From positions 1-35,936 of IMG/VR virus record IMGVR_UViG_3300025138_000137: a stretch of 35,936 bases of DNA; one strand, given 5' to 3'. Under the pieces are notes generated by a model. That model was not told the origin of the DNA. It saw only the letters and a list, made by a program, of their open reading frames with translations, and did not search any database. Each line of letters opens with the position of its first letter. Position 1 is the first letter of the stretch. This document shows positions 2,059-35,936 of the stretch, in pieces. Both the position numbers and the translations under genes were made by a program. The stretch comes from a virus.

Positions 2059-3324
2059 TTAAAAATCTACTGAAAAACGGTCCATATACTTCTCAAATGA
2101 TTCCATATGAGTTATTGGACTGCCTTGTACAGCAGGTGTATTGCCTGCACTTAATAATGAACTTTTGATTGCTGTGTAATCAAAATTGCTCATTCTGCCT
2201 CCACTGCTAAGACGTTTACCGCAGTCACGTAAGTAACCACCTAATCTTTCGTCTGTTGCACTGAAGCCTAATTGACTTACCTGATGCCCTAATTTGGCAT
2301 GAGGATTATCAAACTGTAATAATTCTGTTTCTTTAAGCATGTCAACTGCATTACTAAAGTTTTCACTTTGTATTGCTTTCATAATGTGTGATTCAAATGC
2401 TTTCTTTTTTAAATTTAGTGTTCGTAAGTTATCCATTACGTTTGCAACTTTGCTATCAAAATGTGTTTCTGTAAATAGAGATTGGATGTCGGAATCATCT
2501 TCCTCTAGATTAACTTTTTCTTGTGCTGAAATAGATTCAATTGCTGTTGCGTATGTTTTTGCACCTTGTAATTTTTTAAATGTTTCTCTAATGTTATTGA
2601 TGTTCTCTATTGCTAAGTCTACATACTCTGCGTTTGCTTCATTAACAATGTTGGATCTTCTAACATAAACAATAAACTCACGTAATCTAGTTAAATCTTG
2701 TGCCATGTTTATTATTGATTCGCCAATGCTATCATATACTTCTCCACCTTGTTGAACATGTCTTGCCATCGCTCTAGCCATTGCTAAGTTATTCTCAGGT
2801 AGTTTAAATCTTTCATCGCCACGTTGTATAAACACATTTTGTATATTTCTACTACGTGAACCTCTTACTTCTTCGTCTACTGCTTTTTTATGCTTTAAAA
2901 CTATCTTTACGTTCTCTAAAGGTTGATAACTTGTTTTAGTAGAACCTGACAGTTTGCCTAGACTAGCCTCCATTACGTCTGCCATATCTTTCTCCGAATT
3001 TTTTGTTGCGTCTTGCAACTCGCCTTTTGCTTTAAGTCTCTTACCAAAAATATTGTAATCAAAGTTCATTAAGTAATCTCTACTTAATTCTTTTAACATT
3101 GGTCTTATTTTGTGATCTGATAAATCTTCGCTAGTATTTAAAATAACTGAATTCTTATTAAGATCTATTCTAACTAGTATATTTGGTTCTTCAACAACAA
3201 ATCTTGTGCTTTCTTGTGGATTAACTGTACTAGTGCCTTCAGCATTAAATGTTTTAACTTCATAGCCAAAACCTTTTAATAAATTGAATACTTTTTCTGA
3301 AACTTGTTTTTTATTAGTTGCCAT
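2059..3324 (-). CDS. Conserved-looking unknown protein, 421 aa
   Basis: I do not recognise this protein. It is largely helical and hydrophilic with alternating charge. Its N-terminus (KVFNLLKGFGYEVKTF) is followed by a beta-rich stretch around RFVVEEPNILVRIDL. There is no signal peptide, membrane segment or obvious catalytic motif. It lies between the terminase gene and gp32 and shares their orientation. A GATAAATA late box sits exactly 5 nt before the ATG with no Shine-Dalgarno site, so it should be expressed late, which suggests a virion or packaging role. Function is not assigned. Confidence 0.8.
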   Translation of the reverse strand: MATNKKQVSEKVFNLLKGFGYEVKTFNAEGTSTVNPQESTRFVVEEPNILVRIDLNKNSVILNTSEDLSDHKIRPMLKELSRDYLMNFDYNIFGKRLKAKGELQDATKNSEKDMADVMEASLGKLSGSTKTSYQPLENVKIVLKHKKAVDEEVRGSRSRNIQNVFIQRGDERFKLPENNLAMARAMARHVQQGGEVYDSIGESIINMAQDLTRLREFIVYVRRSNIVNEANAEYVDLAIENINNIRETFKKLQGAKTYATAIESISAQEKVNLEEDDSDIQSLFTETHFDSKVANVMDNLRTLNLKKKAFESHIMKAIQSENFSNAVDMLKETELLQFDNPHAKLGHQVSQLGFSATDERLGGYLRDCGKRLSSGGRMSNFDYTAIKSSLLSAGNTPAVQGSPITHMESFEKYMDRFSVDF

Positions 3325-9136: not shown

Positions 9137-9144
9137 TATTTATT
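9137..9144 (-). promoter_or_regulatory. T4-type late promoter, leaderless spacing
   Basis: AATAAATA, then CTGAT (5 nt), then ATG of SGNH-like protein B. It overlaps the end of the gp4-like gene. Confidence 0.72.
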
Positions 9145-9601
9145 TACGTTTAGCAATTCTTTTTGGCTTTCGAGGTTTATTATTTTGGAATATTTGGTCT
9201 TCGTTAATGACTTTAAAACGTATTCCTTTACGTTTGCACCATTCTTGTGCCGCAGTCCACTTAGCGGCGTTTATATGCGTTTGTATGGCTTGTCCTCTGC
9301 TACGAGCATTCTCTAATGTAGTTTGATTAGCAGGTTTAATTTCGATAAGTTCTACATTATGATTACCGTTTTTATCAGTATACTGAATCATAAAGTCTGG
9401 AACATAGTTTGAATATTTGCCAGTTGCTGGATTAAGATATGGAATTTTTACATTCTCACTTGCCCATTTAGTAATATTAGGATGAGCATCGCACATTCTC
9501 ATGAATGCTAACTCCCAACTACTTCTGTAGAAAGGATTTTTATTCCCTGCATACTTTTGGCGATTCTCAACGGTATAGTTACCTTGTGCAAACTTTGGCA
9601 T
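9140..9601 (-). CDS. 4: Head completion nuclease-like protein (T4 gp4 family)
   Basis: 153-aa basic protein of the T4 gp4 head-completion family, which joins filled heads to tails and has a TnsA-like endonuclease fold. Visible motif residues are FYRSSWELAFMRMCD (Glu30), VPDFMIQY (Asp69) and ELIEIKP (Glu87-x-Lys89), the usual E...D...ExK nuclease pattern. The C-terminus is Lys/Arg-rich (PRKPKRIAKRK). It sits between tail and packaging genes. A late box stands 5 nt before ATG and there is no Shine-Dalgarno site. Confidence 0.87.
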   Translation of the reverse strand: MPKFAQGNYTVENRQKYAGNKNPFYRSSWELAFMRMCDAHPNITKWASENVKIPYLNPATGKYSNYVPDFMIQYTDKNGNHNVELIEIKPANQTTLENARSRGQAIQTHINAAKWTAAQEWCKRKGIRFKVINEDQIFQNNKPRKPKRIAKRK

Positions 9602-24121: not shown

Positions 24122-25261
24122 ATGTATAATCATCACATTACGGCAGTACATGTTGAAGCAACAGATAGATGTAATGCACAATGCCCTGTGTGTATACGTT
24201 CGTACCAAGGTGGTCCTGTAAATAATGTTGTTACTGATAGTGAATTAGGCTTAGCACATTTTAAAGAGTACCTAGGAGAGGACTTTTGTTCTAAAGTTGC
24301 TACTTGGAACTTTTGTGGTAATAAAGGCGACCCTGCTAGTGCTTTAGAACTTGTTGAGATATTTGAATATATTTTAAAATGTAATCCTGAAACAAAAATA
24401 GATATGAGAACTAACGGTGGTGCAAGAAGTGAAAAGTTTTGGGCAAGTATAGGAAAACTTTTTAAAGATACAAAATGTAGTGTAGTTTTTGCAGTAGATG
24501 GTTTAGAAGATACCAATCACATTTATAGAAAAAATGTTAAATGGTCTAACCTGTATAGAAATATAAAAGCATATTGTAAGAATGGTGGCTATAGGCAAGG
24601 GTGGTTCGACACACTAAAATTTGGTCACAATGAACATCAGTGGGAAGAAATAGAAGCACTTTCAAAAAGATTTGGCTTTTGGACTAATTTTAAAGAACCA
24701 TATGGCTTTGCTAAACTGCCAAACGGAAAAGTTAAAACTATACCGGTATACGATAGAAATCCAGACTGGCAAGGAAAGTATAATCCGTTATACACTATTA
24801 AGCCACATGGTGATGTAGAGTATGAAGACCCTGCATATATGCCTATGGCCGAAGAAGATGTTAATCAAAAAGAAGTATTCTATGATTACAACTATGATGA
24901 ATTATTTAAATACAGCGACACCGCTATTAGTTGTGTTGCTAATCAACCAGATAACGACCATTACGAAATATTTTTAGACTGCGACGGTAGTGTTTATCCT
25001 TGTTGTTTTATAGGATCAAGATTGAACTATGGTGAAGATCAACTAGAGGCTATGTTAAAAGACGAGAATATTGTTCTATCACCAAATAACACAATACACG
25101 ACATACTAAAATCTAGATACTTTATAAAAACTGTACCAGATGGCATATCAGGTAAGTTTACTGATGCTAACCTAACTATACAAGGAAAAACAAATCATTG
25201 TTTAACATGTGTAGACTGCTGTGGCATGAAGATGGAACTTTCTCATATGAAAGAATCGTAA
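24122..25261 (+). CDS. Radical SAM/SPASM-domain enzyme
   Basis: 379-aa radical S-adenosylmethionine enzyme. The 4Fe-4S motif CNAQCPVC (Cys17, 21, 24) lies at the N-terminus after EATDRC. The TIM-barrel pattern follows: NFCGNKGDP (the GGEP-like position), DMRTNGG, and VFAVDGLEDTNHIYR. The C-terminus has a SPASM-type set of Cys: 271, then DCDGSVYPCC (287, 294, 295), then CLTCVDCC (360, 363, 366, 367), for auxiliary clusters. SPASM enzymes modify peptides or sugars. There is no small precursor peptide beside it, and sugar enzymes lie on both sides, so a sugar or protein substrate is more likely than a RiPP. It is the first gene of the plus-strand island. Confidence 0.87.
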   Translation: MYNHHITAVHVEATDRCNAQCPVCIRSYQGGPVNNVVTDSELGLAHFKEYLGEDFCSKVATWNFCGNKGDPASALELVEIFEYILKCNPETKIDMRTNGGARSEKFWASIGKLFKDTKCSVVFAVDGLEDTNHIYRKNVKWSNLYRNIKAYCKNGGYRQGWFDTLKFGHNEHQWEEIEALSKRFGFWTNFKEPYGFAKLPNGKVKTIPVYDRNPDWQGKYNPLYTIKPHGDVEYEDPAYMPMAEEDVNQKEVFYDYNYDELFKYSDTAISCVANQPDNDHYEIFLDCDGSVYPCCFIGSRLNYGEDQLEAMLKDENIVLSPNNTIHDILKSRYFIKTVPDGISGKFTDANLTIQGKTNHCLTCVDCCGMKMELSHMKES

Positions 25262-25277: not shown

Positions 25278-26327
25278 ATGCCTAGATTAAGTTTATGGAA
25301 TCCAACGAAAACCAAAGACTTCGAATTCATTGATAGAATAGTCGGAGAGCATATCCATGCGGGTGGAACAGGAGTTCACATCCACAAATACTTAGGAGTA
25401 CAAGATTCACCTGCATCAGGTGATCCTACTAGACCAGGAGGATCCGGCAATAATTCAGAAGTTTTTATACAAGATTTATTATTTTTAGAAAATAGAGATA
25501 GAAAATACAGCAAAGATATTTTTGAACTAAGAGCACAATATAACTTAGGCGATAATGATTCGTTTGATTTAACACAATTTGGTATGTTCTTAGCCAATGA
25601 TACGTTATACTTTAATTTCCATACAGAAAGTATGGTAGAAGCAATAGGCAGAAGATTAATGCCAGGTGATGTATTAGAAATACCTCATCTCAGAGACGAC
25701 TTATTACTTGGTAGTGATGATGCTATAAACAGATATTTTGTAATAACTGATGCAACTAGGCCTGCAGAAGGCTATGATGCTAGATGGTGGTCACATTTAT
25801 GGAGATGTAAAGTTGGTCCTATAACAGATTCACAAGAGTACAGAGATATACTTGGTACTGGTGAAGAAGAAAGTGATCTTAGAAATCTTATCAGTAAGTA
25901 TAAAGATGAAATTATTATCAATGATAAAATACTAGAACAAGCAGAAAAAGATATACCTAATGCATTTAAACTTAATTCAGATCATTTATATATTGAGGAG
26001 TCCACAGGTAAGCCTGGTGTAGGTTTTAGTTCAGGTCAAGTACCCAACGGCGTTAGTGTTGTTGGTAGTGGAACATCTTTTCCTGCAAGTGGCGTTAGCA
26101 ATGGCGACTATTTCTTAAGAACAGATTTTTCACCAAACAGATTATTTAAAAAAGACGGAACACGTTGGCTAAATGTAGGCTCAGACTATTCAGGCAGTTG
26201 GTCAGCGGCTAATAGGCTGTTAGAAACATTTGTTAATAATGATACATTTGTAACATATAGTGATGGTGAAAGAGCGGCAGAAAAAACAAATTTAAGCAAG
26301 GCTGTAAAGCCTAAAACGGATAACTAA
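25278..26327 (+). CDS. 14: Neck protein gp14, with extra C-terminal module
   Basis: Neck protein that, with gp13, closes the filled head and docks the tail. 349 aa against 256 in T4. The diagnostic N-terminus is SLWNPTKTKDFEFIDRIVGE. IFELRAQYNLGDNDSFDL and RRLMPGDVLEIP follow the usual family order. The extra C-terminal part has a module at residues 263-300 (SNGDYFLRTD...LFKKDGTRWLNVG) like those repeated in the sheath here. The stop overlaps the gp15 start by one base (TAATG), so gp14 and gp15 are coupled. Confidence 0.9.
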   Translation: MPRLSLWNPTKTKDFEFIDRIVGEHIHAGGTGVHIHKYLGVQDSPASGDPTRPGGSGNNSEVFIQDLLFLENRDRKYSKDIFELRAQYNLGDNDSFDLTQFGMFLANDTLYFNFHTESMVEAIGRRLMPGDVLEIPHLRDDLLLGSDDAINRYFVITDATRPAEGYDARWWSHLWRCKVGPITDSQEYRDILGTGEEESDLRNLISKYKDEIIINDKILEQAEKDIPNAFKLNSDHLYIEESTGKPGVGFSSGQVPNGVSVVGSGTSFPASGVSNGDYFLRTDFSPNRLFKKDGTRWLNVGSDYSGSWSAANRLLETFVNNDTFVTYSDGERAAEKTNLSKAVKPKTDN

Positions 26328-27676: not shown

Positions 27677-28108
27677 ATGAAAACTACAGCGGCAGGCGTC
27701 GTATTTCTTGCTAAGGACACCGGTAGGTGTTTATTACAGTTAAGAAACTCAGACAAACGATTTAAACATACATGGGGTTTTTGGGGTGGCATTATAGAAG
27801 GCACCGAAACACCGTATGAATGCATTCAACGAGAATTAGAAGAAGAGATAGGTTTTATTCCAGAGCCACTTAAACTTAATCCAATAGACGTATTCCAAAG
27901 CAAAGATAAAAAATTCTATTACTATAGTTTTGTATATCTTGTAGAAGAAGAATTTTTACCACCTAAACTTAATGGTGAAAGTTGCGGCTATGCATGGGTT
28001 AATATAGGTAATTGGCCACAGCCATTGCACAATGGTGCAAAAGTAACGTTACTTAAAAATGGTGGAACTGACAAACTACATACTATTCTAGATATCCATA
28101 CTACATAA
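27677..28108 (+). CDS. Nudix hydrolase
   Basis: 143-aa Nudix-fold pyrophosphohydrolase. The Nudix box is perfect: Gly38, Glu44, then RELEEEIGF (52-60), matching GX5EX7REUXEEXGU, so metal binding and catalysis should be intact. Possible substrates are damaged dNTPs, NDP-sugars, dinucleotide alarmones or mRNA caps; the sequence does not decide. Its ATG directly follows the gp15 stop, giving coupled translation. T4 has nudE with a different context. Here, between structural genes, NDP-sugar control is a reasonable guess. Confidence 0.92.
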   Translation: MKTTAAGVVFLAKDTGRCLLQLRNSDKRFKHTWGFWGGIIEGTETPYECIQRELEEEIGFIPEPLKLNPIDVFQSKDKKFYYYSFVYLVEEEFLPPKLNGESCGYAWVNIGNWPQPLHNGAKVTLLKNGGTDKLHTILDIHTT

Positions 28109-28116: not shown

Positions 28117-28761
28117 ATGAGCAACGGAGAAATCATTGATTTTAATGTTTTGCGAATACAGAGCGAACTAGACAGATACGAGCGAACTAAGACTTTGCCA
28201 CATTCACTACTCGAAGGGACATACAGTATATCAGAAATTAGTGAATTATACTTAGACAAATTGGCACCAGAATATAGGGATATAGCCAAAAGGCTGTATA
28301 CAGAATACTACGGTCATTTGAAAAGTAACATACAAAGTCTAAGGAGTGCCTTATCTAAAGATTACACATCCATTATGAAGAACCTTGCAACTGCACATGA
28401 TAGTTTTTGGTTTAAAGAAATAATGAATTTGTATCGACCGGGTATGAATCCAGTTCGTGCTTTGTATTATCAAACACGAGAAGTTACCAGGAGTTATAAT
28501 CCTGAGGACCCGCATCACTATTGGCTTAAAGATCTTATAACAGATAAAGAGTTTAATAATATTTTATTAGACTCGTTACATAGAGATGTTAAGAAATTAG
28601 AACGTATTATAAAAAGATATTACTTTCCTATTACAGAAGTTAGTGCTGATGTACCTTTAGAACTGTTTCATGCTAAACAACAACTAAGAGATTTTAGAGC
28701 ATATTATTTGTTCTTTCGTTCTACTAAAGATTGGGATAAAGAATTTTACGATGCTCACTGA
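28117..28761 (+). CDS. Unknown helical protein, 214 aa
   Basis: I do not recognise this protein. It is almost entirely helical and charged, with many Tyr, Arg and Leu, for example YRDIAKRLYTEYYGHLKSNI and RDVKKLERIIKRYYF. No membrane segment or catalytic motif is visible. It ends the plus-strand island, and its last 7 nt overlap the stop of the convergent oxygenase gene. With its late box it may be a minor virion or assembly protein. Confidence 0.75.
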   Translation: MSNGEIIDFNVLRIQSELDRYERTKTLPHSLLEGTYSISEISELYLDKLAPEYRDIAKRLYTEYYGHLKSNIQSLRSALSKDYTSIMKNLATAHDSFWFKEIMNLYRPGMNPVRALYYQTREVTRSYNPEDPHHYWLKDLITDKEFNNILLDSLHRDVKKLERIIKRYYFPITEVSADVPLELFHAKQQLRDFRAYYLFFRSTKDWDKEFYDAH

Positions 28762-29309
28762 TGAGGCGAACCTTCTCTATTTAGAAGCCAGTTAATTGTA
28801 ATTCTAAAATCAGACTTAATGTCTACTCCTGCACTATGCCAACTATTTTCAGTAACTTTAAATAAAAGTAATTGTCCAGGCATTCCGCCTATTTCTTTTC
28901 CAGGACCGCGTTCATCTTCATGCACATTTGTTCCAAATACTTTTTCATCATTTAAGTATATTATACCTCTTGCAGGTATATAAAAGTCCCCATCGTAATT
29001 GTAATCGTTGTGTACATCAAGTTTTGAAGTTCTATCAAACATAGACGTGCCCATTGTAACTGTAACAATATCTAAATCCCATAACTCATTTACTTTTCTA
29101 ACAATTTCGTCTCGATGTTCATCTAGTAGATCTTGTGCAGGATGCGGAAACATGTTGTTGAACTCGTCGAATTTTGTTAATACTGTGCTTGATTCTTTAT
29201 ATTCTTTGTATGCTGATTTAACAAAGTCAGCATCTATAAAATCTATAAGTAGATGTTCAAAAGGCTCGTATTTTATATTATCTTTATGTATTGCATCTAA
29301 GTTTATCAT
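28755..29309 (-). CDS. 2OG-Fe(II) oxygenase C (prolyl-4-hydroxylase-like)
   Basis: 184-aa 2-oxoglutarate/Fe(II) oxygenase. His100-x-Asp102 (LDVHNDYNYDG), GIIYLND in the core strand, His158 (NSWHSAG) and Arg169 (DFRITINW) form the complete iron and 2OG set, in the style of prolyl-4-hydroxylases. It is distinct from the A/B pair at 18.6-19.6 kb. Its start overlaps the adenylate cyclase stop (ATGA), so it is made together with the cyclase. The target is unknown. Its 3' end overlaps a convergent gene by 7 nt, and no terminator is visible. Confidence 0.83.
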   Translation of the reverse strand: MINLDAIHKDNIKYEPFEHLLIDFIDADFVKSAYKEYKESSTVLTKFDEFNNMFPHPAQDLLDEHRDEIVRKVNELWDLDIVTVTMGTSMFDRTSKLDVHNDYNYDGDFYIPARGIIYLNDEKVFGTNVHEDERGPGKEIGGMPGQLLLFKVTENSWHSAGVDIKSDFRITINWLLNREGSPHQ

Positions 29310-31375
29310 TTTGATGTTTTTCTTTCAACTCCGTCCCAATCACCTATAGGCATTGGTTTTTTAATTCTTTCTGCATATAACTCTGCTAGTGTATTATTCC
29401 AGTTATGTTCTTTTATAATTTCTATCTGGTGTGAACAAGTTGCCCATTCTCTATTTTGATATGCATCTATCATTCTATTTACTACTCTTGCATATTTATG
29501 ATCATTTAGTATAGTATATATTGTTACAGGTGCTGTTTGGCCTTTAACTGCAATTTTATCTAAGATAGTTAAATTTTCCGGAGTGTTAATTTGTTTTAGT
29601 GTATGCTCAGTAAACATAAAGAACACACCATACTCTTTGGTTTGTGCTTCTAAACGTGCCGCTAAGTTTACACTATCACCTAAAACAGTATAATCGAAAC
29701 GTTGATTAGAGCCCATATTACCTACTACTGCGTCACCTGTGTTTATTCCTATGCCAACACCTAACTCCATAAGTCCGTCTGCTTTAAGTTCTTTATTAAG
29801 ATCTTTAAGTTCAACTTCCATTTCCTGTGCTGTCTCTATTGCCAACTGAGCATGATTATCAACATCTAGTGGAGCATTCCATATTGCCATTAAGGCATCG
29901 CCTATATACTTGTCTATTGTTCCTTCTTTACGCATAACTAAATCAGTCATTGGTGTCATGTACCTGTTTATAAGTTTGCCTAAACCTTGTGGGTCTGTTT
30001 TAAACTGTTCTGATATAGGAGTAAAGCCACGTATGTCTGAAAACAAATAAGTCATTGTTCTTGTATCTCCACCTAAACGTAATAGGCTTGGATCTTTCTG
30101 TAACTTCTTAACCATTGCTGGAGCAAGATAGTGTTCAAATTGCTTCTTGATTTGTTCACGTAATTTAAATTGTTTATAGAAGTTGTTAAATGCCGCCTGT
30201 GTAAACACTAGGAACCCACTAATTACAGGGAATGTAGCATCTAATAATACTAATCCATTTGTGTATTTGTAAACACTAAAGTATGCTATTCCGCCTAATA
30301 TAGTTAAACTAATAGGTGCTGTAAGTAGCAAAGGTAATCTATATACTGCTAGTGCCACTAATAACATAGTCACAGACGCAATAAGAACCTCTATAAGCGA
30401 CGATAACTGACTCCGCTGTATATTTGATCCACTTATAAAGTTTTGTAGCATGTGTGCTTGTATATGCTGTGGATAGAGGTTGCCTCTTGGAGTAGGAACT
30501 GGATTAGCAATACCTTCTGCTGTAACACCTACTATCACATACTTGCCTGCAAGGTCTGGTATGCTTTCTGCACCCTCGTATTCTATCTCTGTAAACTTGT
30601 TATTAAAACGTATATATGCCGTACCGTTTGGTTGTGTTACAATAGGCTGGTACCCTTTGACAGCAATTTCTTGTATGCCTATTTCATTTGTTTTAACTAT
30701 ATAACTTTTATTACCTGTTTTAACTCTCAACATCTCTACAGCAAAAGAGGGATAAATTTTCTCACCTACTGTAATTGCTAATGGGTATGTTCTTGTTTGG
30801 TTGTCTGGTTGTGGTGCTGATGCATTAACACCTTTACCGTTACTTGCTGATTCTAAAGTGTCTATATTGGTAACTAAATTAGGCCACTTTAACAAATAAT
30901 CTTTTGCTGGAACAGGCCCTATTGTGCCTGTGCCTATATGTGGTCCTGATGACTTTATACCTTTAACACTTGGTGTTTGACTTATAACATTATAGTTTAC
31001 AGGATTACGTCTAGCACCCGGAACATTCATTACGTTCTGAGTCATCATACCTGCAAAACTATCATCTCCTCCAAATCTATCTGCTTCAGGAAACATAATA
31101 GTCCATCCAAGTACGCCACCATTTTTCATAGCAACGTCTACAACCATTTGTGCATAGTATTGTCTAGGGAAAGGATATTGGCCGTATTTTGCTAAACTTT
31201 TTTCGCCAATGTTTATTAGTACAATATCTTCACTTTGTACTATTTCATCTAATTGTTGATAACTGTCAAATACTTGACCACGTAAGGATTGTAATGGAGT
31301 AGGGTCAAATACCCTAAGTGCGAGTAATAGAAGAATCGATACTGCTACTGCGTACCCGCTATATAACCATTTCAT
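29306..31375 (-). CDS. CHASE2-domain membrane adenylate cyclase (class III)
   Basis: 689-aa sensor-cyclase that would make cAMP from ATP. One N-terminal membrane helix (about 5-22) leads to an extracytoplasmic CHASE2-type sensor (about 25-325). Three membrane helices follow (about 327-345, 349-368, 373-392), the standard CHASE2 layout, and then a cytoplasmic cyclase domain (about 437-625). Catalytic residues look intact: metal Asp447 (FSDIRGFT) and Asp493 (IGDALMA), substrate Lys489 and Thr563 (DYTVLGD), transition-state Asn570 and Arg574 (SVNLAARLE). The Lys/Thr pair is the class IIIb type, some members of which respond to bicarbonate. A late box sits 5 nt before ATG, and an oxygenase is coupled downstream. 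This gene type is usual in bacteria and unexpected in a T4-like phage. Confidence 0.93.
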   Translation of the reverse strand: MKWLYSGYAVAVSILLLLALRVFDPTPLQSLRGQVFDSYQQLDEIVQSEDIVLINIGEKSLAKYGQYPFPRQYYAQMVVDVAMKNGGVLGWTIMFPEADRFGGDDSFAGMMTQNVMNVPGARRNPVNYNVISQTPSVKGIKSSGPHIGTGTIGPVPAKDYLLKWPNLVTNIDTLESASNGKGVNASAPQPDNQTRTYPLAITVGEKIYPSFAVEMLRVKTGNKSYIVKTNEIGIQEIAVKGYQPIVTQPNGTAYIRFNNKFTEIEYEGAESIPDLAGKYVIVGVTAEGIANPVPTPRGNLYPQHIQAHMLQNFISGSNIQRSQLSSLIEVLIASVTMLLVALAVYRLPLLLTAPISLTILGGIAYFSVYKYTNGLVLLDATFPVISGFLVFTQAAFNNFYKQFKLREQIKKQFEHYLAPAMVKKLQKDPSLLRLGGDTRTMTYLFSDIRGFTPISEQFKTDPQGLGKLINRYMTPMTDLVMRKEGTIDKYIGDALMAIWNAPLDVDNHAQLAIETAQEMEVELKDLNKELKADGLMELGVGIGINTGDAVVGNMGSNQRFDYTVLGDSVNLAARLEAQTKEYGVFFMFTEHTLKQINTPENLTILDKIAVKGQTAPVTIYTILNDHKYARVVNRMIDAYQNREWATCSHQIEIIKEHNWNNTLAELYAERIKKPMPIGDWDGVERKTSK

Positions 31376-31380
31376 AGTTA

Positions 31381-31388
31381 TATTTATC
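31381..31388 (-). promoter_or_regulatory. T4-type late promoter, leaderless spacing
   Basis: GATAAATA, then TAACT (5 nt), then ATG of the cyclase gene. The phage late box ties the cyclase to the phage transcription programme. Confidence 0.75.
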
Positions 31389-31395
31389 GGAAAAA

Positions 31396-32295
31396 CTACC
31401 CTTTTACTAGTTCTCTAAAGTGATCAATAGTCAGTTGCATACCTTCTTCTAGAGGCATAAGTGTTTCATCTGACATATCGACATGCTTTAAAGATTCAAC
31501 ATTTGCACTAACTGTAGCACCTGCAATTTCGCCTGGTCTCATTGGTAAGTTAATTACTTTGCTACTGCTACCACTTAATTTTATTATAAGTTCTGCAATT
31601 TCTTGGACTGTTTTATTATCCTTAGGGCCAACTTCTACTGCTTCTGGAAATACGTTTCCTACGAATGCTTTTTCTGTAGCAATAACTAATGCATGTGCTA
31701 CATCGCCGACCCAACACATATCACTAACTTGTGAACCATCACCATATACTTCTATATCCATGTTATCTAATGCTCTGCAGGCAAACGAAGGTGTAATTTT
31801 TCTCACTTTAGAATCACCCCATGGCGGTACTGCTCTTTGTCTAGGGCCATATGCATTCATGGCTCTAACAATATTAACCTGTGTGCCTCTATCATTATTA
31901 TACATATCAATAAAACGTTCAATCATTGTTTTTGTTATAGAATAAGGATTATTCATCCAGTGATTACCTACGCCAATATAAGTGCCGGGCAAGTTGTATT
32001 GTGACGCGGCTTCTAGCATATTAAGTCCACCCATTAAATTACTTAACGCGGCTGGTCTTGGATTTGCGATTGTTTCTTGTGTGCCTAATACTGCGGCTAA
32101 ATGTATCCAACTGTCTACATGTGCCATTGCTTCAGTAACAGCAACTTCATCTCTTACATCTCCTAGTATTACTGGGCAAGAATAATTTCCTCTGTCATAA
32201 TGATCAAAGATTACAGGTTCGTGTCCTCTTTCTTTTAATTTTTCTACTACATAGGAACCGATAAATCCTGCTCCGCCTGTTACTAATACTTTCAT
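31396..32295 (-). CDS. NAD-dependent sugar epimerase/dehydratase (second SDR)
   Basis: 299-aa extended SDR. NAD motif GGAGFIG at residues 7-13, HLAA at 65-68, Tyr118 and Lys122 in PYSITK, then NAYGPRQR and a PMRPGEIAGATVSAN segment near the end. The place of the catalytic Ser/Thr reads IGVGNHWMN and has no clear Ser, so activity may be altered. AGGAG stands before ATG. It is last in the operon with the sulfotransferase and glycosyltransferase, and probably supplies or alters the sugar they use. Confidence 0.86.
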   Translation of the reverse strand: MKVLVTGGAGFIGSYVVEKLKERGHEPVIFDHYDRGNYSCPVILGDVRDEVAVTEAMAHVDSWIHLAAVLGTQETIANPRPAALSNLMGGLNMLEAASQYNLPGTYIGVGNHWMNNPYSITKTMIERFIDMYNNDRGTQVNIVRAMNAYGPRQRAVPPWGDSKVRKITPSFACRALDNMDIEVYGDGSQVSDMCWVGDVAHALVIATEKAFVGNVFPEAVEVGPKDNKTVQEIAELIIKLSGSSSKVINLPMRPGEIAGATVSANVESLKHVDMSDETLMPLEEGMQLTIDHFRELVKG

Positions 32296-32304
32296 TCTAT
32301 TCTC

Positions 32305-32961
32305 CTAAATTGAATCTGGCCAATATTCTTTTATTATATCACTAAAAACAGCATGACCTTTCTGTAACTGTATTGTGTTTAATTTTTCCTTATAATAGTA
32401 TTTCTTTGCTTTAAAAAAGAAACTATGTCCGGGGTTTGTTCTTCTTGTTAATGTATTTACTGCATCATGTTCTCGTGCTTTACAATTTTGTAATGTATAT
32501 TTTTCTACTGCTGAATTTATATTTTTTAATTCTGCTTTTGGATTATAACTTACTATCTTTATTAATTCTCTAGCAGGATTGTCAAGCATATCTTCATATC
32601 CTATTTGTATTGGTGCTTGTAATCCATATACAAATGAATCCTCATACTGTATCTTAGGTATAAAATTAAATAATGCTCCTTCCTCTAAAAAATGATCGTA
32701 GTATTCTGATTCTGTTAATTCGCATTCTTCGTCTTGGACTAACTGCGTATAGTTCCATGCACTACATACGACATCTAATGGATGCCTAAAAACATGTATA
32801 TCTGGACGAATACTAATTGGATATTCTATCTTTAGAACAAGTTCATCTAAAATTGTTTTATCTGTTAAGTCGCAGAAATAGTCTGGCTTATGTAGTAATT
32901 CAATTGCCATCCATACTAACCAACTGCCTCCACTTTTAGTATAACTTGCTACTAGCACCAA
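32305..32961 (-). CDS. Sulfotransferase-like protein
   Basis: 218-aa protein of the PAPS-dependent sulfotransferase superfamily. Residues 8-15 (TKSGGSWL) match the 5'-phosphosulfate loop (PKSGTTWL in the family). HVFRHPLDVVCSAW (Arg59, Ser67) matches the 3'-phosphate motif RxPxDxxxS. IGYEDMLDNPA is also typical. It would move sulfate to a hydroxyl or amine, most likely on a glycan given the glycosyltransferase that overlaps it by 10 nt. It is shorter than most family members (250-300 aa). Confidence 0.8.
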   Translation of the reverse strand: MVLVASYTKSGGSWLVWMAIELLHKPDYFCDLTDKTILDELVLKIEYPISIRPDIHVFRHPLDVVCSAWNYTQLVQDEECELTESEYYDHFLEEGALFNFIPKIQYEDSFVYGLQAPIQIGYEDMLDNPARELIKIVSYNPKAELKNINSAVEKYTLQNCKAREHDAVNTLTRRTNPGHSFFFKAKKYYYKEKLNTIQLQKGHAVFSDIIKEYWPDSI

Positions 32962-33674
32962 TGCTCCTTTATCCAGTTATCTGCAGGCCATGTATGATCA
33001 ACTTCGTGTGGTTGTGGCTTGCCGTGAAAAAATACCATATTAACTGTATCTGGTAGTGTGCGTACAGTTGCTAATGATTGTGCTTTATAACTTACGCACT
33101 CATTAGGAAATTCATCTTGTAATCTAATAACCTCAGGAGGTTCTATAAAATCTGTTAATGCAGGTCTTGGGTTTTTATTAATTCTAACAACACCCATGCA
33201 CTCTTCTAAAAATTGATTTGTTCCGCCCCATTGTGTATAATCGCAATCTAAGTTGGGATAGTCCTTAGGTTCATATTTAGATGTAAAGTATTTCCATACT
33301 GCATCTCTAATTTCTTTATTCCACATAATATATGCAGTTTGCAATCCTGATAGCCAACCAAAGTCACTAATAGTTGCAAACGGTTTATCTAAACCTATAA
33401 TATGATCTATGTTTCCTGTAATAATAGTATCTAAATCCATATATACCAATTTATCATTATGTTCATGCTCTGGATTAGTAAGTCCTATAATATACCACCA
33501 TACTGGTAAGTCTACTAAAAACTCTCTGGTCTCACATTCAACATCGGTAGGATCGTCTGTATAACAGATAAATCTATGCGGAACAGTTACATATTTTTGT
33601 ATTGCATGATATAAGTTATTTACATACTCAGGACCAAATTTAGGACCCCATTTAAAACATACTATGTCTATCAT
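32952..33674 (-). CDS. Glycosyltransferase, GT-A fold (GT8-like)
   Basis: 240-aa transferase with the metal-binding DxD in LVYMDLDTIITGNID (Asp80, Asp82), preceded by HRFICYTDD. A later YIMWNKE and a C-terminal VFFHGKPQPHEV (His-Gly-x-x-Lys-Pro) fit GT8-like enzymes. It should transfer a sugar from a nucleotide sugar with a divalent metal. It overlaps the sulfotransferase by 10 nt and the 60-aa gene by 4 nt, which implies a shared pathway. Acceptor unknown. Confidence 0.82.
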   Translation of the reverse strand: MIDIVCFKWGPKFGPEYVNNLYHAIQKYVTVPHRFICYTDDPTDVECETREFLVDLPVWWYIIGLTNPEHEHNDKLVYMDLDTIITGNIDHIIGLDKPFATISDFGWLSGLQTAYIMWNKEIRDAVWKYFTSKYEPKDYPNLDCDYTQWGGTNQFLEECMGVVRINKNPRPALTDFIEPPEVIRLQDEFPNECVSYKAQSLATVRTLPDTVNMVFFHGKPQPHEVDHTWPADNWIKEHWC

Positions 33675-35640: not shown

Positions 35641-35936
35641 CTATTGGGTGCCTTGTGTGACTGTTACTGAACAGCCTCCTGATGTTACACATGTTTGACT
35701 AAGTGTGTAACTTTGATTTGTGGAGCCTTGCTGTAATAGTGTTACTGCGGAAGGCTGACTTCCGGATAAATTAATTGTGGCTGTATGGGCGCCGTCTCCT
35801 TTTTGCTCTCCATTTACATTTATTGGCTGACCTGTATTGGCATTTAGGTAAACATTTTTTACACCATTACCACGTTGTCTCCAAAATACATCACTATAGT
35901 CTGCATTATATAAACGTACATCCATTGTATGGTTTG
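35641..35936 (-). CDS. Curlin-like repeat protein (5' end may lie beyond window)
   Basis: At least 94 aa are visible from an ATG at 35925. The frame stays open to the window edge, so the true start may be further upstream. Residues near SAVTLLQQGSTNQSYTLSQ match the curlin repeat spacing S-x5-Q-x-G-x2-N, and the preceding TINLSGSQ fits a beta strand of the same kind. The C-terminus has a CVTSGGC pair that could form a disulfide, and VTVTQGTQ. The protein is rich in Gly, Ser, Thr, Asn and Gln and was probably exported or displayed. Curli-type genes are, as I recall, present in some marine myoviruses; only one clear repeat is seen here. Confidence 0.55.
   Translation of the reverse strand, partial: NHTMDVRLYNADYSDVFWRQRGNGVKNVYLNANTGQPINVNGEQKGDGAHTATINLSGSQPSAVTLLQQGSTNQSYTLSQTCVTSGGCSVTVTQGTQ

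Follow-up and report, generated by a model that had tools for sequence, protein, structure and literature searches.

A predicted CHASE2 adenylate cyclase with exchanged catalytic domains in curli-associated phages of a PA5oct-like jumbo lineage

The window analyzed here, a stretch of viral DNA of 35,936 nucleotides (IMG/VR record IMGVR_UViG_3300025138_000137, positions 1 to 35,936), carries on its minus strand a gene joining a CHASE2 sensor domain to a class III adenylate cyclase. The gene and its surroundings contain the following features:

28755..29309, minus strand: gene downstream of the cyclase, overlapping its stop; resembles a 2OG-Fe(II) oxygenase by eye only, with no Pfam or PHROG hit
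29306..31375, minus strand: CHASE2–class III adenylate cyclase; 689 aa, ATG start, no internal stop
31381..31388, minus strand: T4-type late box GATAAATA, 13 nt before the cyclase ATG, with 5 nt between box and ATG
31396..32295, minus strand: nucleotide-sugar epimerase, cargo gene; Pfam Epimerase, E 1.6e-36; in the same place in loci L003 and L006
32305..32961, minus strand: sulfotransferase-like protein, cargo gene; Pfam Sulfotransfer_1, E 3e-8
32952..33674, minus strand: cargo protein, glycosyltransferase-like by eye only, with no Pfam hit; in the same place in L003 and L006
35641..35934, minus strand: second curlin-repeat gene of a curli (T8SS) cluster, C-terminal part; 97 aa kept, the 5' end being cut by the window end

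By synteny, the gene overlapping the cyclase stop has a counterpart downstream in some relatives and is missing in others. The curlin-repeat fragment had no Pfam hit by itself; in a tblastn comparison, positions 35653–35877 matched AGE60352 of phage HTVC008M at 48% identity, and that protein bears a Curlin_rpt domain. Elsewhere in the window, positions 24122–25261 gave a weak radical SAM match below the Pfam cut-off, and a protein with a TnsA-like endonuclease N-terminal domain (9140–9601, E 1.9e-20) lies amid structural genes.

The predicted cyclase consists of a transmembrane helix (residues ~6–23), the CHASE2 domain (15–336), three further transmembrane helices (~325–346, 349–374, and 381–413), the cyclase domain (437–622), and a helical C-terminal tail (626–689) ending in DWDGVERKTSK. 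Pfam profiles for CHASE2 (residues 15–336, E 3e-31) and Guanylate_cyc (residues 440–622, E 7e-20) matched the 689-aa product well over their cut-offs, and PHROG 35576 matched the entire protein (E 1e-166). The AlphaFold model (mean pLDDT 75.8) contains the N-terminal helix, a periplasmic domain, the same three helices, and the cyclase domain. Profiles and model thus agree with the full membrane sensor-cyclase of the original prediction, and the position of CHASE2 between the first helix and the three-helix hub is that of a CHASE2 receptor. In PDB fold searches, which mainly took in the cyclase domain, the modeled domain resembled CyaC of Spirulina (1wc1; Z 25.8, rmsd 1.9 Å, 187 residues aligned) and CyaB of P. 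aeruginosa (3r5g; Z 25.5).

The active site is intact, as had been claimed: the two metal-binding residues D447 and D493, the K489/T563 pair, and the N570/R574 transition-state pair are all in place, and with the Guanylate_cyc domain they assign the protein to class III type IIIb, the class deduced earlier from the Lys/Thr pair. Across 61 full-length phage homologues, D447, D493, K489, and R574 are invariant (61/61), position 563 is T in 45, S in 13, and D in 3, and position 570 is N in 58 and S in 3. The gene is under strong purifying selection with dN/dS around 0.1, the values for the whole protein ranging from 0.08 to 0.16 among close relatives and those for the catalytic domain being mostly 0.03–0.10. 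We regard the window protein as an apparently intact class IIIb (Lys/Thr) membrane cyclase that is expected to make cAMP, and its sequence allows a strong inference of catalytic activity. That it might be a receptor without catalysis, retained for a role in the membrane or in structure, appears improbable. Relatives of one catalytic type, T3, carry D at position 563 (a K/D pair) and N570S, and activity may thus be reduced in some members; the window protein, however, has the full catalytic set, the catalytic domain is the better conserved half in many pairs of its own type, T1, and every catalytic domain brought in by exchange is again an apparently intact cyclase.

A pattern search of IMG/VR gave 177 matches, 175 of which encode a relative of the cyclase, and 80 independent viral loci were kept out of these 175; the cyclase is thus encoded at no fewer than 175 viral loci. 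Among cultured phages, annotated homologues are found in HTVC008M (37% identical) and Melnitz (34.5%), in both at the ends of curli clusters. A chimeric assembly, raised earlier as a way in which the finding could fail, is rejected on these numbers: we found nothing in favor of a fusion of phage and bacterial DNA, while dozens of independent contigs, one of them 250 kb long, have this gene at the same position and cultured phages carry homologues, and we give this explanation practically no weight. The gene is already known from ocean phages as the pelagiphage curli-cluster adenylate cyclase, described together with FecR (Wittmers et al. 2022, PMC9599517), and AGE60353 of HTVC008M is annotated as "adenylate/guanylyl cyclase"; with these and the Melnitz homologue, the view that T4-like phages were not known to carry it is not supported. 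To call the protein host-derived was likewise too specific, as the CHASE2 halves of the phage proteins form one clade apart from all sampled bacterial ones in our tree and the closest bacterial proteins are only ~35% identical to the window cyclase. The cyclase tree gives no evidence for or against separate origins of the three catalytic types from bacteria.

The genome had been described as T4-like, which holds only broadly; its closest relatives by terminase (57%) and sheath (41% to PA5oct) are PA5oct-type jumbo phages. An HTVC008M-like pelagimyophage lineage was considered for the window phage and set aside, its terminase being only 33% identical to that of HTVC008M, and 32% to that of Melnitz. 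Locus L036, which lies in the 250-kb contig, has a terminase 75% identical to the window's, and L054 and L062 share the same terminase lineage (66–67%). These similarities and the size of the L036 contig indicate that the window is a fragment of a marine jumbo lineage; judged by these proteins, a PA5oct-like jumbo lineage is added here to the known HTVC008M-like carriers.

The original prediction was right that the cyclase carries the phage's own late box: GATAAATA sits exactly 13 nt before the ATG. NNTAAATA is found at the same place in 54 of the 61 homologues (hand count), 47 times as NATAAATA and 7 times as NCTAAATA; among the homologues compared, the box is absent at the cyclase start in L074–L080. 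A TATAAATA-type box at a fixed distance from the cyclase start marks the gene as a T4-like late gene. The motif TAAATA-N5-ATG occurs 9 times in the window, 227 times in related loci, and 7 times in HTVC008M, compared with ~1, ~25, and <1, respectively, at other spacings, so that the N5 spacing is strongly overrepresented. Other window ATGs with a late box are located at 3324, 4923, 5798, 8311, 9131, 9601, 16173, and 34485 on the minus strand and at 25278 and 28117 on the plus strand, and T4-type boxes exactly 5 (sometimes 6) nt before an ATG are also seen in L002–L067 and L082. Late transcripts of T4 start ~6 nt past the late box, and box-bearing late mRNAs would thus be leaderless here, with the start codon at their 5' end.

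The window itself shows the curli cluster only as the cut second curlin gene, and because it ends inside the cluster, the FecR and curli genes were missed in the first reading. In relatives reaching far enough, the upstream order is CsgF–CsgG–curlin repeat–FecR–curlin repeat, followed by zero to six cargo genes and the cyclase. CsgG was detected in nine of the 22 records searched, and FecR in the same nine. L003, with a cyclase at 95% identity to that of the window, carries the same cargo genes, the epimerase and sulfotransferase among them. Homology to the HTVC008M protein and the position at the 3' end of a cluster that is seen in relatives including L003 identify the window gene as a phage T8SS-associated cyclase. 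A histidine kinase is reported upstream of CsgF in podoviruses (Wittmers et al. 2022, PMC9599517); none was found in L067 or L031, which have tail-fiber-like genes there. Also upstream of the curli cluster, L067 encodes a protein (57–821) with a Peptidase_G2 and a weak NADAR-DarT1 match. Phage curli genes have been described earlier (PMC7029224, PMC9004378), and one report places them in an environmental T4-like virus attributed to Bacteroidetes (PMC7198788). Curli and FecR proteins of viruses occurred at each of the 65 GOV2.0 stations, metatranscriptomes providing evidence that they are expressed, and Pelagibacter is reported to be without T8SS genes (Wittmers et al. 2022, PMC9599517). No late box was found at CsgG and FecR of the jumbo relatives, and CsgF of HTVC008M has one. 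As there is a late box at the cyclase and none at CsgG and FecR, and up to six cargo genes lie between, co-transcription of the cyclase with the curli genes is not required.

We compared the divergence of the two halves of the cyclase with that of its candidate partner, the FecR-domain protein. Across 17 phage loci, FecR identity correlated with that of CHASE2 at r 0.92 and with that of the cyclase domain at 0.74, and the partial correlations were 0.85 (p 0.0002) and 0.40, respectively. The identities of CsgG and CsgF behave much like that of FecR, and the co-divergence of FecR and CHASE2 may come from linkage alone, through one recombination breakpoint and without contact between the proteins. 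Among bacterial CHASE2-cyclases, a FecR gene lies within ~8 kb at 40 of 80 loci (L084–L163) and directly upstream on the same strand at ~20 of them (hand count); in L157, an Ensifer locus, the upstream neighbor is a 1233-aa protein with FecR and TPR domains. The background is 127 FecR genes in 158 Mb from 28 of these genomes (summed by hand), or ~0.015 expected per 18 kb, the 40/80 count having used a profile built from phage FecR and the genome count that of Pfam. Bacterial CHASE2-cyclases thus adjoin FecR genes far above chance, which lends independent support to the pairing and resembles NsrA–CyaK of Sinorhizobium. Curli genes, searched with a profile built from phage CsgG, were found beside none of the 80, and bacteria in this sample share the FecR–CHASE2 pairing and not the curli linkage. 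This genetic evidence gives us moderate confidence that the cyclase is coupled to FecR as a putative upstream partner. The signals of CHASE2 were described as unknown in 2016 (PMC5192318); the FecR–CHASE2 pairing provides a testable partner and could help to explain the role of the phage curli clusters.

The separate late box and the cargo genes between curli genes and cyclase would fit a free-standing physiology switch, in which late cAMP, independent of curli and FecR and set by another periplasmic cue, reprograms catabolism or lysis timing via CRP. We consider this rather unlikely, as curli and FecR genes are present in those nine records and lie upstream wherever the contig extends far enough, FecR adjacency recurs in bacteria, and FecR tracks the sensor half of the protein.

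The two halves of the cyclase have different histories in the phages. For CHASE2 and cyclase, respectively, identities to the window protein are 92 and 49% in L054, 88 and 46% in L067, 77 and 45% in L058, 78 and 39% in L061, and 76 and 40% in L062, the drop occurring in all five at residues 400–410, just past the third helix. L061 and L062 have cyclase halves at 83% identity to that of Melnitz, and between HTVC008M and Melnitz the identity is 57% for CHASE2 and 36% for the cyclase. There is one sensor family, over whose tree the three catalytic types (T1, T2, and T3) are scattered. On the sensor tree, forcing T2 or T3 into one clade was rejected (p-AU 1e-72 and 1e-129), as was forcing the carriers of the window-type sensor together on the cyclase tree (p-AU 1e-52), where the AU p-values presume groups named in advance. 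In L067, the genes flanking the exchanged domain on both sides are still window-like. L054 and L055, like L061 and L062, stem from different samples, so that assembly error is not the cause. The catalytic domain has been swapped and the CHASE2 sensor kept, with the three catalytic types present inside one jumbo lineage. As judged from alignments and trees, the sensor and catalytic halves assort independently, with a breakpoint near residues 400–410. Separable sensor and enzyme halves swapped by phages seem to be undescribed so far. By such exchange, the phages would change the enzyme module and yet hold on to a cAMP-type output, an argument for the importance of this output. It is possible, at somewhat less than even chances, that the catalytic domain is an exchangeable cassette, of which at least three types were gained by recombination at the TM3/linker boundary while the sensor stayed matched to FecR, in a modular relay from the curli pore and fiber via FecR to CHASE2.

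The reading that we prefer, by a little over even chances, is that of a late-made inner-membrane receptor cyclase that reads the state of the envelope or of curli and FecR and raises cytosolic cAMP. CHASE2 in the periplasm would read the state of the phage-encoded outer-envelope module, made up of the FecR-domain protein, the CsgG/CsgF pore, and curlin-repeat proteins, and the signal would pass through the three-helix hub and the linker (residues ~400–436) to a homodimeric class IIIb catalytic domain, which would make cAMP from ATP late in infection. The phages would swap the catalytic domain and keep the sensor that fits their FecR. No match to a cAMP-binding PF00027 gene was found in the 14 viral records searched, so that the effector must be a host protein; cAMP would then act on host cAMP-binding proteins, probably of CRP type, and could in this way affect curli or lysis. 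A literature search for a cAMP receptor of SAR11 hosts gave nothing usable. If active, the cyclase of a lytic phage would give the host a second-messenger receptor pathway late in infection; if the relay is true, infection would install a pathway from the outer membrane to cAMP and, at least in SAR11, would do so together with a curli system absent from the host.

A role in countering or triggering nucleotide-based defense had also been suggested. The PADLOC PycC models match the catalytic domain (E 2e-29), as could be expected for a Pycsar-like immune cyclase or for a decoy or trigger of such defense. However, the PycC models are themselves class III cyclases and the match is at superfamily level only, and the membrane CHASE2 architecture, the purine-type K/T pair, and the consistent curli context speak against such a role, which we hold to be very improbable. 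Membership in Pycsar was rejected, with a PycC model match only and no Pycsar effector match among seven neighboring proteins scanned. The only other PADLOC match in that scan was that of a Nudix hydrolase (window 27677–28108) to the candidate family PDC-S07.

Among known systems, the pelagiphage T8SS cyclase (HTVC008M AGE60353; PMC9599517) shares with the window protein the overall architecture, with CHASE2 and cyclase combined, and the location at the 3' end of a CsgF–CsgG–curlin–FecR–curlin cluster. It differs in its sequence (37% identical) and in its catalytic type, T2 in place of T1, whereas the window belongs to a jumbo PA5oct-like lineage and has cargo genes inserted before the cyclase. 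The protein of Methylophilales phage Melnitz (QZI94833) has the same cluster order and the same type of C-terminal tail, ending DWNGV...TK, but is 34.5% identical and has a T3 catalytic domain with the K/D and N-to-S changes; the Melnitz paper (PMC9004378) treats the curli genes with no mention of the cyclase. An experimental precedent exists in Sinorhizobium meliloti, where the outer-membrane receptor NsrA signals to the CHASE2 cyclase CyaK and raises cAMP (PMC7529298; PMC13001267). The NsrA–CyaK/CyaD system resembles the window in pairing a CHASE2 adenylate cyclase with an outer-envelope receptor, NsrA being compared by description only; unlike the window, it is cellular, answers a plant or ribosomal protein signal, and is without curli genes. 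The BiofilmReg operon of Burkholderia (PMC5192318) is cellular, too, and its output is a histidine kinase instead of a cyclase, but it is linked to biofilms and, like the phage clusters, places a FecR(-LysM) protein next to a CHASE2 receptor.
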